A DNA stretch of 26,845 nt from a virus, in the IMG/VR virus record IMGVR_UViG_3300047409_000153, positions 1-26,845 of that record. The stretch is one strand, 5' to 3'. Of the stretch, positions 5,919 through 9,416 are shown one piece after another. A program made the translations under genes and the position numbers. Under the pieces are notes generated by a model. The model worked only from the letters and a program-made list of their open reading frames with translations, did no database searches and was not told the origin of the DNA. The first letter of the stretch is position 1. Every line of letters starts with the position of its first letter.

Positions 5919-6166
5919 TGTTCGCCGCCGAGTGGATGCTCACAACGAAAAGCGATTGGCTGTATGGCGACAAGGATAAACCCGAACGCCACTTTGCCAT
6001 CGACGTCGATGGCCGTTCCGCGTGGGAAGACCGCGACAAGGCCGAGGCTGTCGCCCGCGAGATGGCGATCCTCCTGCACCTTCCGGGCACTCAGGTCGGT
6101 TGGGCGGCGGTCGATACGGCCACCCTGCATCCAAAAGTGCGTGAGAAACTGGAGGGAAAAAGCTGA
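5918..6166 (+). CDS. Small hypothetical protein
   Basis: A protein of 82 residues from the ATG in a TGATG overlap with the preceding gene; a GTG at 5915 would add one residue. Mixed alpha/beta look: FAIDVDGRSAWEDRDKAEAV then a helix EMAILLHLPG, and a C-terminal basic tail. No recognised family. Coupled at its own end to the next gene (TGATG at 6164-6168). It is part of the small-gene block between portal and scaffold. Confidence 0.7.
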   Translation: MFAAEWMLTTKSDWLYGDKDKPERHFAIDVDGRSAWEDRDKAEAVAREMAILLHLPGTQVGWAAVDTATLHPKVREKLEGKS

Positions 6167-6351
6167 TGGCAAAAATCCCGTTCATGGCCGTTCCCGGCTC
6201 CGATCCCAACGCCACGATGAAGGGCGACAAGGCGCAGTTTGTGAAGGGCTCGACGGCCCCCAAGAGCAAACCGAAGAAGCCGCAGAAGGTCGGCTCGAGA
6301 GGCTATGTCGGCGGCGTCAGCCAGTTCGCGCTGCCGAGGACGAAGAAGTGA
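6166..6351 (+). CDS. Small lysine-rich hypothetical protein
   Basis: A protein of 61 residues with about one fifth Lys/Arg, concentrated in APKSKPKKPQKVGSRG and in the final PRTKK. No hydrophobic span. Likely unstructured and nucleic-acid-contacting or capsid-lining, but this is inference from charge only. The start overlaps the previous stop, and its own stop overlaps a GTG start of the next gene (GTGA at 6348-6351). Confidence 0.65.
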   Translation: MAKIPFMAVPGSDPNATMKGDKAQFVKGSTAPKSKPKKPQKVGSRGYVGGVSQFALPRTKK

Positions 6352-6635
6352 TTTTCGTGTTTCGGGACGGCGCTGTTGTCCCGAAAGGGTCCGACCGGGC
6401 GCGATGCCCTCAAACTGACACCCGGTCGGATTTCCCCGCGCCCAGGCTGAGCCGCCTCGAGCCGTTCGAGAGCCCGGTCACCGGGCGCGAAATTACGTCG
6501 TGGCGCGAACGCGACCGCGACATGGAGGCCGCAGGCGCGGTCGATCCGCGCGACCTGAAGCCAAAGGAGGCCAAAAATGCCACCCGACGAACCGACACTC
6601 CCTTCGAATGGGGACACCTCCCAGACCCCGGCTGA
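6348..6635 (+). CDS. Hypothetical protein with SPVTGREITSW motif, GTG start
   Basis: A protein of 95 residues. The GTG at 6348 overlaps the previous stop, with GAGGA (6335-6339) as ribosome binding site. It begins VIFVFRDGAVVPKGS, a short beta strand pair, and has the block ESPVTGREITSWRERDRDM followed by AGAVDPRDL. I remember similar short proteins just ahead of scaffold/coat genes in other proteobacterial phages, without a known function. The 3' end overlaps the scaffold gene start by 59 bases in another frame. The region has no other long + frame candidate, which supports it. Confidence 0.75.
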   Translation: MIFVFRDGAVVPKGSDRARCPQTDTRSDFPAPRLSRLEPFESPVTGREITSWRERDRDMEAAGAVDPRDLKPKEAKNATRRTDTPFEWGHLPDPG

Positions 6636-7764
6636 ACAGCCCCGGCCAAGCCTCCGCGAGGTCGCCGAAGCCAGCTGGGACGAGGTCCAGGACGCCGCCC
6701 TGGCGGACGACGGTGGTGAGCCGTCTCAGCAAACGGTTGACGAAGGCGGCAGACGGCGCGATGCTTATGGTCGCTTCCTGCCAGCAGATCAGGGCGGTGA
6801 GCCGGGTGAGCAGTCGCAAGACCCAGCCCCGAAACCAGTTCCCGCGCCCGATGCCACGAAACCGGTCGATCCAGCCCTTGGGAGCAATCAACCGCCGCAG
6901 CATTGGCCCGAGCAAGCCCGCCAGATGTTCGCCAAGCAGAGCCCGGAGGCGCAGGCCTTCTTGCTCGAACGGGTGACCAGCACCGAGCGGGACTATCAGG
7001 CGAAGGCGCAGGCCGCAGCGACAGCAGTTCAGTTCACCCAGTCGCTCGCGCCGATCTTCCAGGACCCGGTCATTGCCGGGTCGTTGCAGCAGGCCGGTGT
7101 TTCGCCCCATGACGCGATTGGTCAGTGGGCGGGCTTCCACCGGAGGGCGATGGACCCCAATCCAGCCGTCCGCGCCGCGCTGCATCAGGAACTCGGCCAG
7201 AGGATGGGACTGAACCCAGCGGCGACAGGCCAGATGAGCCAGCCGGGCCAGGTGGCCCTCTCCGAGGAAGACCTCAAGGACCCGGCTATCCGTTATTTCG
7301 CTGATCACATCAGCAAAACGCTTCAAGAGCAGCAGGCCCTGCGGGGCGAACTCAACCAGATGCAGCAGGAAACCCAGAAACGGGCCAATGCTGAAGTCCT
7401 GAAGGTCACCAGGTGGTCAATCGACAGTTTCGCGGACGAAAAGGATGCTTCGGGACAACCGAAGCGGCCTCACTTCGACGCGGTGCTGCCGCTGATGATC
7501 GATCTGTTCCGGGCCAACCCGGAACGCGACATCCAGGAAGCCTACGACTACGCCATCTGGGCGGTTCCCTCGGTCCGCGAGAAGCTGCTCGCTGCTGAGC
7601 GCCAAGGCATTCAGCAGCAGCAGGGCAACTTGCGGGCACGACAAGCGGTGCGGTCCAACGTGCGTGGCATCACCTCGCCCGTGGCCAAGCCAGCCGGAGA
7701 CGGCAAGTCGTCGGGGCTCAGAGCGACCCTTGAAGCAGCCGCTGAAGAGATCGGCCTCAGTTGA
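6577..7764 (+). CDS. Probable scaffolding protein
   Basis: A protein of 395 residues with strong Shine-Dalgarno GGAGG (6566-6570). The N-terminal ~110 residues are acidic, Pro/Gln-rich and look disordered. The middle is helical, including PEQARQMFAKQSPEAQAFLL and the coiled-coil-like stretch KTLQEQQALRGELNQMQQET. The C-terminus is basic, with RARQAVRSNVRG. Long charged helical proteins directly before the coat gene are normally scaffolds that direct procapsid assembly through a basic C-terminal coat-binding element. Position and composition support this, but no sequence motif proves it. The stop lies at the base of a hairpin that precedes the coat gene, so the two genes may be regulated together. 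Confidence 0.75.
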   Translation: MPPDEPTLPSNGDTSQTPAEQPRPSLREVAEASWDEVQDAALADDGGEPSQQTVDEGGRRRDAYGRFLPADQGGEPGEQSQDPAPKPVPAPDATKPVDPALGSNQPPQHWPEQARQMFAKQSPEAQAFLLERVTSTERDYQAKAQAAATAVQFTQSLAPIFQDPVIAGSLQQAGVSPHDAIGQWAGFHRRAMDPNPAVRAALHQELGQRMGLNPAATGQMSQPGQVALSEEDLKDPAIRYFADHISKTLQEQQALRGELNQMQQETQKRANAEVLKVTRWSIDSFADEKDASGQPKRPHFDAVLPLMIDLFRANPERDIQEAYDYAIWAVPSVREKLLAAERQGIQQQQGNLRARQAVRSNVRGITSPVAKPAGDGKSSGLRATLEAAAEEIGLS

Positions 7765-7801
7765 GGAGCGCCGCCGAGCGGGCTCCTCTGACAGGAGCCC
7801 G
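7763..7801 (+). promoter_or_regulatory. Alternative hairpins over the capsid ribosome binding site
   Basis: Arms 7779-7787 and 7793-7801 form a perfect 9-bp GC-rich stem with loop CTGAC. The 3' arm holds AGGAG, the ribosome binding site of the capsid gene (ATG 7804). A second stem, GAGGAGC (7763-7769) with GCTCCTC (7782-7788), shares bases with the first, so the two exclude each other, and the second frees the ribosome binding site. The stop codon of the scaffold gene (7762-7764) lies at the foot of the second stem, so ribosomes finishing the scaffold would disturb it. The layout fits translational control or mRNA stabilisation; it has not been tested. Confidence 0.5.
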
Positions 7802-7803
7802 TC

Positions 7804-8757
7804 ATGGCCGAACCCACCACCAATAACCTAGTTGCAACTACATTAAATAACTACCATAAAGAATTCGCAGATAACGTATCAAATAGTAACGCTGTAACGG
7901 CTTTACTTCGGCAAGGTGATCGTATCCGCACTATTGATGGCGGCAAAGCAATTGCTTGCCCCCTTAGTTACGCAGAAGAAACTTTTGCTTGGTACAGCGG
8001 CACGGAACTGCTTTCCCGCGCCGTGAAAGAGACGATCAGCGAGGCCGACTACGCCCCCGCGAACGCCGTTGCCTCGATCACGCTCTCCGGCCCCGACCTG
8101 GCCAAGAACAAGGGCAAGGAGCGCATCCTCAACCTGCTGGAAGGCAAGGTGGAGAACGCCCAAAGCACGATGAACAATAACGTGACCAAAGCGATTTACG
8201 GCGACGGCACGGTGGCAAAGTCGTTTGCCGGCTTAAAGGCGATGGTGACGAATGACGGCCTTGGCATCGTCGGCGGCATCGACGCCGGCACCTGGGCGTT
8301 CTGGAAAAACCAGTTCACCTCAGTCGCCCGCGCCACCGGCCTGCAATACCCGGCCTTGAAGGCGGCGATGAACGCCACCTGGATGAAGCTGATCAGGGGC
8401 ACCGAACACCCCGACCTGATCGTCGCCGATGGCGAAATCTATTCGACCTACGAGAGCGGCTTGCAGGAAAACCAGCGCTATGCCGACGCCCGGCTTGGCG
8501 CGCTCGGCTTCGAAACCCTGAAATACAAGCAGGCGGCAATCGTCTTCGACGGCGTCGCCACCGGCCTGACTGGGGCTTATTTTTTGAACACGAAATATCT
8601 CAAGTTCGAGATTTATTCGGGCCGGAATTTCGAGACGCTCGACCTGCCCGACCAGTCGCCAGACATGGATGCCATCACCAAGCACATCGCCTTCATGGGC
8701 GCGCTGACGCTGTCCAACCGCTCGATGCAGGGACGGCTGTTCGCCACCGGCACCTGA
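7804..8757 (+). CDS. Major capsid (coat) protein
   Basis: A protein of 317 residues with AGGAG 6 bases before ATG. The sequence has the look of HK97-fold coat proteins of short-tailed phages: N-arm with NSNAVTALLRQGDRIRTIDG, then the FAWYSGTELL strand, a long helix LEGKVENAQSTMNNNVTKA, the region TWMKLIRGTEHPDLIVADGE and a C-terminal strand LTLSNRSMQGRL. It follows the scaffold and precedes connector genes, the standard order. Codon use is odd: nt 7821-7990 contains only 69 G/C of 170 bases with rare codons such as CTA, TTA and AGT, then changes abruptly to the GC-rich usage of the rest of the genome. No protease or delta domain is visible. Confidence 0.85.
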   Translation: MAEPTTNNLVATTLNNYHKEFADNVSNSNAVTALLRQGDRIRTIDGGKAIACPLSYAEETFAWYSGTELLSRAVKETISEADYAPANAVASITLSGPDLAKNKGKERILNLLEGKVENAQSTMNNNVTKAIYGDGTVAKSFAGLKAMVTNDGLGIVGGIDAGTWAFWKNQFTSVARATGLQYPALKAAMNATWMKLIRGTEHPDLIVADGEIYSTYESGLQENQRYADARLGALGFETLKYKQAAIVFDGVATGLTGAYFLNTKYLKFEIYSGRNFETLDLPDQSPDMDAITKHIAFMGALTLSNRSMQGRLFATGT

Positions 8758-8839
8758 TTGCCTCGCAACCGCGTGGCAAAACGGGATCGGCGGCGGGGTT
8801 TCACTCCTTGGCTCGTCGCCGATCCTCCCCAAAGGAGGA
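8758..8839 (+). promoter_or_regulatory. Structured intergenic spacer after the capsid gene
   Basis: Three consecutive stems are present: TTGCC (8758-8762) with GGCAA (8775-8779); a perfect 9-bp stem, GGATCGGCG (8784-8792) with CGCCGATCC (8817-8825), loop 24; and TCCTCC (8823-8828) with GGAGGA (8834-8839), loop CCAAA. The last covers the ribosome binding site GGAGG of the gene at 8847 and competes with the 9-bp stem. There is no U-run, so it is not a normal terminator. It may lower expression after the coat gene or protect the coat mRNA. Confidence 0.45.
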
Positions 8840-8846
8840 CTGAAAA

Positions 8847-9416
8847 ATGCCAGAAGAAAGCCAGGCCCTTATCCGCTTCACCGCCGGCTGGGTCGAGGAA
8901 GGCGTCAGCACTGACGGCCTGCCGCGTTTCCGCGACACGGTGCGCATCATCAAGTCGGTGCCGCCCTACACCCAGGTCGAATACGAGGCCACCGAGGCCG
9001 ATTTCGACGACAATCCCATGCAATACCAGGCCTTCCTGCGCGAGCAGGGTGCCCGGCTGCAAGCCCCCGCCGAGGGCGGCTTCCCGCTGGCGCTATGGCC
9101 GGTGATCAGCCCGGCGCAGTTCAAGATGCTGACCGCCCGCGACATCACCACCATCGAGCAGCTGTCGAAGCTGCGCCCTGATACGGCGATGCCTGGCGAT
9201 CTCAAGGAACTGGTCGAACGCGCCAAGCAGATGCTGGCGCTGTCGGCCAATCTCGGCAAGTTCGAGGCGATGATCCGTGACCGCGACGGCCAGATCGCCG
9301 CGCTCACCGAGCAGGTCGTCGAACTCAGGGGCACCGTCAGCGCCCAGAACGCGCTGATCAACACCATGCGGGTGACCGCCGCGCCGATCCAGCAGCCGAT
9401 AGCGCAGGTCGCCTGA
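8847..9416 (+). CDS. Hypothetical head-region protein with C-terminal coiled coil
   Basis: A protein of 189 residues with GGAGG 8 bases before ATG. The N-terminal ~70 residues look beta-rich (VRIIKSVPPYTQVEYEATEADF). Residues ~85-130 are helical (PAQFKMLTARDITTIEQLS), and residues ~140-175 form a heptad-like coiled coil with IRDRDGQIAALTEQVVELRG. No recognised family. Position between coat and adaptor suggests a minor head or head-completion protein. The next gene starts one base after the stop, so translation is probably coupled. Confidence 0.75.
   Translation: MPEESQALIRFTAGWVEEGVSTDGLPRFRDTVRIIKSVPPYTQVEYEATEADFDDNPMQYQAFLREQGARLQAPAEGGFPLALWPVISPAQFKMLTARDITTIEQLSKLRPDTAMPGDLKELVERAKQMLALSANLGKFEAMIRDRDGQIAALTEQVVELRGTVSAQNALINTMRVTAAPIQQPIAQVA

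Follow-up and report, generated by a model that had tools for sequence, protein, structure and literature searches.

We analysed the scaffold-coat junction of IMG/VR record IMGVR_UViG_3300047409_000153, which belongs to a large group of uncultured soil phages and whose whole stretch of 26,845 nucleotides is called the window here. A probable scaffold gene ends 39 nt upstream of the major capsid (coat) gene, and four segments, designated P, A, B and C, occupy the end of the former and the gap. The features of the junction are as follows:

6577 to 7764, plus strand: probable scaffold gene, an open reading frame of 395 amino acids that sits between portal and coat and adjoins the coat gene; stop codon TGA at 7762-7764
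7804 to 8757, plus strand: coat gene, 317 amino acids, PHROG 9953 (major head protein)
7793 to 7797, plus strand: coat Shine-Dalgarno (SD) sequence AGGAG, 6 nt 5' of the ATG (7804)
7752 to 7758, plus strand: segment P, last scaffold codons CGGCCTC, with SD-pairing potential through 7756-7758/7795-7797 and 7752-7754/7799-7801
7760 to 7774, plus strand: segment A, 5' arm of the upstream hairpin (parts 7760-7762, 7763-7769 and 7771-7774), with the stop codon inside and covariation
7778 to 7792, plus strand: segment B, 3' arm of the A:B hairpin (7778-7781, 7782-7788 and 7790-7792) and also 5' arm of the SD hairpin (7778-7787)
7793 to 7802, plus strand: segment C, 3' arm of the SD hairpin, partner of 7778-7787

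The upstream open reading frame is probably the scaffold gene, judging from its position and from a structure model that is mostly helical and of low confidence (pLDDT 62); comparison with PHROG and Pfam yielded no match. Named coat relatives (Mx8, Mx9, BUCT555 and a Bradyrhizobium phage) share only 26-39% identity with the coat protein, and a DNA-level search of a phage collection with window positions 6800-9000 gave no match. Codons 7 to 66 of the coat gene (7822-8001) are markedly AT-rich at third positions (GC3 0.32, as against 0.84 elsewhere in the gene), while the encoded protein is 94-100% conserved relative to L003 and L002. Milder patches of this kind were seen in a few other relatives (e.g. 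L116, 0.43/0.87; L182, 0.48/0.74), and the patch probably results from recombination of the 5' end of the coat gene with a lower-GC relative.

A preliminary description of this locus reported two mutually exclusive hairpins around the coat ribosome binding site, and both stems are indeed present and perfect. The core of A:B pairs 7763-7769 (GAGGAGC) with 7782-7788 (GCTCCTC), while B:C pairs 7779-7787 (CGGGCTCCT) with 7793-7801 (AGGAGCCCG) over 9 bp and is extended by a tenth pair, the G-U pair 7778:7802. Folding bore out that the stems exclude each other, with B:C hiding the coat SD and A:B keeping segment B off it, and the scaffold stop lies at the foot of the A:B stem as described, TGA 7762-7764 overlapping the foot of arm A. 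The size given for this overlapping stem (7 bp) was too small, as pairing extends inward (7771-7774/7778-7781) and outward (7760-7762/7790-7792), yielding a hairpin that spans 7760-7792 and, because its outer pairs reach 7792, ends directly before the SD. The energy calculation proposed at that time gave fold energies of -20.2 kcal/mol for A:B and -19.4 kcal/mol for B:C, which makes the two hairpins nearly equal in stability. The junction thus holds two exclusive pairing sets of similar energy, the arrangement that defines a four-segment switch. When folding was modeled on a growing transcript, A:B had a probability of about 1 with the RNA end at 7788-7798, and B:C became dominant from about 7808. 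The open and hidden SD states of the window lie 1.5-3 kcal/mol apart, and as a result of this small difference predicted SD access (0.02-0.4) varies with the folded length.

A stem of at least 9 bp over the SD arose in only 2 of 5000 shuffles of 7740-7850, which by itself is only moderately significant because the window contains about 20 starts. Two perfect 9-bp stems with loops of 3-10 nt occur in the entire window, compared with 0-4 in shuffled genomes; the other one lies at 6360-6386 (TTTCGGGAC...GTCCCGAAA), between the open reading frame 6166-6351 and the scaffold gene. That a second such stem exists and that shuffled genomes also contain some would fit a chance structure, and a stem of this kind could also act as a DNA-level signal such as a terminator or operator. 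We consider either explanation extremely improbable given the shuffle result for a position over the SD, the family-wide masking described below and, for a DNA signal, the lack of a T-run 3' of the stem, of a terminator-like call and of any Rfam family at gathering threshold. An intrinsic terminator was rejected since no U-run is found and TCATGG directly follows the stem. Prediction returned neither promoters nor terminators at the junction, and the only Rfam matches there were far below gathering thresholds. Readthrough of the scaffold stop to a second in-frame TGA (7789) was likewise discarded, as the frame is lost in L003, L009, L012 and L015. It is the comparative evidence, rather than the shuffle statistic, that makes the hairpin observation convincing.

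Five scans yielded many uncultured coat relatives with 74-100% identity, and a further scan added three Aureimonas genome loci with 47-49% coat identity. Deduplication resulted in 93 distinct leaders, in 92 of which both SD and stop codon could be identified, and statistics were calculated on 49 clustered leaders more than 20% apart. Across these 49 leaders, mean accessibility of the coat SD was 0.18 as opposed to 0.385 with shuffled upstream DNA, with none of 60 shuffled sets as low, so that masking of the coat SD is a rule of the family. No such effect was seen for the downstream neighbour gene (0.250 versus 0.273 shuffled). Most relatives hide the SD by base pairing with the scaffold gene's own last codons, as a rule GGC UUC (Gly-Phe) opposite GGAGCC. 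Such codon masks reach 13 bp in L184 and 12 bp in L126, comprise 8 bp closed by GAAA or GCAA loops in L113 and L116, and take the form GGCCUC-UAAG-GAGGCC in L020; the second hairpin, A:B, is often nested in the loop of the P:C helix. B:C had been put forward as the mask of the coat gene, which holds for the window and its closest look-alikes but not for most relatives, where the last scaffold codons do the masking. The coat SD is accordingly sequestered in structure in the window and throughout the family, and the upstream codons pair with it in most relatives but weakly in the window, where arm A lies within the footprint of a ribosome.

Three further checks provide independent support for selection. 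Scaffold ends matched the gap of their own leader more closely than gaps taken from other phages (0 of 5000 permutations; 5 of 5000 for SD pairing), exchanging the halves of A:B among long-gap leaders likewise worsened their fit (0 of 5000, z -6.9), and replacing the last 8 scaffold codons by synonymous ones raised SD access from 0.196 to 0.252, none of 60 recoded sets being as low as the native sequences. The mask over the coat SD is well supported as a genuine feature under selection. Among distant relatives, a short look-alike (CCTC-TGAATT-GAGG) was seen in Mwe-JY13 only; in Mx8, Mx9 and BUCT555 the gap measures 141-163 nt and showed no comparable mask.

Other arrangements were observed in individual leaders. 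L117, L119, L130 and L162 belong to a sub-clade whose gaps measure 17 nt and in which a hairpin (GAGGTC...stop...GACCTC) encloses the scaffold stop and ends two bases 5' of a comparatively open SD; L130 carries a two-sided change in it (GAGATC/GATCTC). The scaffold genes of L132, L148 and L189 end in CTA, a rarely used codon for Leu (4 of 337 Leu codons), through which CCTAT can pair with ATAGG at the coat SD. In L173, L174 and L123 a short GC-rich hairpin directly 5' of the SD contains the scaffold stop in its loop.

Gaps of about 32-49 nt combined with strong B:C pairing were found in the window and in L002, L003, L005-L009, L012, L015, L021-L023 and L025. The codon mask has decayed in most of these long-gap members and gap bases are the main partner of the SD; the window itself carries CTC (Leu) at the codon that is TTC (Phe) in most relatives. 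On the coat tree the window sits in a poorly resolved fork, and the identity of the SD partner has changed several times. Pairing of P with A together with B:C was seen in L007, which is from the same contig as L102. A covariation analysis, suggested in the preliminary description, was carried out on twelve long-gap leaders; an alignment of the short codon-mask leaders, in which the SD was misaligned, did not enter the pair counts. A:B yielded three two-sided pair changes and scored higher than every slid control; the nine core pairs of B:C showed no compensatory change. The latter result is uninformative because the SD arm cannot vary, and selection on B:C is thus visible through retention only. 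Pairing was retained in 90% of the B:C cells, and none of the 12 leaders departs from GU, AU or GC at pair 7778:7802.

The missing compensatory change in the B:C core would also be expected if only A:B or masking in general were selected and B:C were a by-product of the resemblance between A and the SD, perhaps after tandem duplication of a stop-codon/SD palindrome. AGGAGC is common to A and C, the P-A and B-C units look repeat-like by eye, L003 has GGCCTC-TGA-GGAGCGCC next to GGGCTCCTC-TGA-CAGGAGCCCG, and L020 carries a single unit, GGCCTC-TAAG-GAGGCC. Judged by eye, an origin by repetition of a GGCCTC-TGA-GGAGC unit may be suggested. B:C nevertheless survives where A has changed (with 11 bp in L008 and with a bulge in L009 and L005) and the tenth pair is kept throughout, and we regard a pure by-product as fairly unlikely.

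To mimic a ribosome at the scaffold stop, RNA was treated as covered to about ten bases past the stop codon, a crude footprint, and minimum-energy and partition-function estimates were made for 37 °C, ignoring kinetics, proteins and S1 binding. Averaged over 41 other relatives, SD opening became cheaper, going from 4.8 to 2.5 kcal/mol, so that a ribosome at the upstream end is predicted to open the coat SD in most of the family. The opposite was obtained for twelve long-gap members, where the mean cost increased from 5.1 to 10.3 kcal/mol, with a rise in 11 of 12 (L093 being the exception); the 11-12 long-gap members compared here are related and were chosen partly for this layout. Division by gap length alone (at least 32 nt versus shorter) resulted in mean changes of +3.3 and -2.8 (p about 1e-5), with L128 (44-nt gap) showing a small fall against the long-gap trend. 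When the gap was shuffled in 11 members, the observed mean of +5.7 compared with -1.0 for shuffled sequences, the highest mean of any shuffled set being +1.0. In the window the cost climbs from about 2 to about 11 kcal/mol, since the footprint occupies arm A and leaves B available to pair with the SD; with RNA covered to 7774, B:C has a probability of 0.99 and SD access is 0.00. For the window, the model thus contradicts the earlier suggestion of SD release by terminating ribosomes. The masking, its pairing partners, their conservation and the sign of this energy change are results of computation.

Based on these results, we propose that the junction carries a cis-acting four-segment RNA mask of the coat SD which responds to the ribosome in opposite ways in the window subgroup and in most relatives, a proposal to which we assign an even chance of being correct. 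Segments P, A, B and C can adopt one of two full folds, P:C enclosing A:B or P:A together with B:C, and the SD is hidden in either. In most relatives P:C serves as the mask, and a ribosome finishing the scaffold gene would strip P away and open the coat start, i.e. coupling by RNA unfolding; positive coupling is the natural reading of these folds. In the window subgroup P:C is weak and B:C takes over the masking. With no ribosome near, A:B would compete with B:C as the counterweight in a bistable mask and render SD opening cheap (about 2 kcal/mol in the window), while a ribosome at the scaffold stop would cover A, release B and let B shut the SD (about 11 kcal/mol). The window element would thereby make coat initiation independent of termination on the scaffold gene, or hold up initiation for a short time, instead of coupling the two. 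Effects on translation, on the protein ratio and on phage fitness are what we infer from these models. A stronger version, in which scaffold termination and coat initiation exclude each other and this inverted coupling evolved from a positively coupled ancestor as the SD partner moved from scaffold codons into the gap, strikes us as doubtful.

A ribosome dwells at a stop codon only briefly, and in the window the opening cost drops to 2.0 kcal/mol once the covered stretch extends past stop+18 and to 0.9 past stop+24, so that coupling of the two genes by scanning or read-through ribosomes is still conceivable. The window might then use ordinary positive coupling as well, its hairpins keeping the SD shut until a ribosome that has finished the scaffold gene scans on or reinitiates. 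The fold of most relatives predicts such behavior and unfolding or scanning mechanisms are well known (PMC12548453), but a ribosome placed at the usual stop position is predicted to shut the window SD further, the gap measures 39 nt, and structure just 3' of a stop codon correlates with weaker coupling (PMC12548453). Positive coupling in the window is possible in our estimation, if somewhat unlikely.

The proposed four-segment mask shares properties with several known systems. It is textbook knowledge that translation of an upstream gene can open a hidden start further downstream, and the trp and his leader attenuators contain four segments that pair as 1:2 plus 3:4 or as 2:3 plus 1:4, with ribosome position making the choice. 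Alternative four-segment pairings are common to these attenuators and the window element, whose predicted output is however SD access instead of termination, which has no leader peptide and in which the SD is hidden in both full folds. Coupling by RNA unfolding has been reviewed for genes VII-IX of phage f1, MS2 coat-lysis and E. coli rpmI-rplT (PMC12548453). A hidden downstream ribosome site within a structure altered by upstream translation is the shared property, and most relatives fit it; the window subgroup differs, as a ribosome at the upstream stop is predicted to close the SD. In MS2, coat protein binds an operator hairpin and long-distance masking links coat and replicase (PMC9894550). 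Its upstream coding sequence masks a start as in the P:C relatives and its start hairpin resembles B:C, whereas its RNA genome, distant element and proven repressor protein set it apart.

By analogy to the MS2 operator (PMC9894550), the scaffold or coat protein might bind the B:C hairpin and operate the switch; the preliminary description had also considered a bound protein. The SD does lie in a stable stem whose loop, CUGAC, is the same in 7 of 12 aligned relatives (in one of these inside a longer loop). This loop is not kept in L006, L008, L009, L012 and L093, and a protein-operated switch appears improbable.

The element bears on how tailed phages set the scaffold:coat ratio from one message; for P22 the translational mechanism was described in a 2023 paper as yet to be elucidated (PMC9894550). 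Published work traces coat relatives of the Mx8 lineage and P22 back to a shared ancestor (PMC10386132), and gene order and the need for a fixed scaffold:coat ratio are shared with P22, the likeness being one of analogy. A four-segment scaffold-coat switch with reversed predicted polarity was not found in a limited open-access literature search. In one phage family, a conserved, varied and compact RNA element sits at exactly the scaffold-coat junction, and because its natural variants predict opposite responses to upstream translation, these responses would be testable with short reporter fusions.
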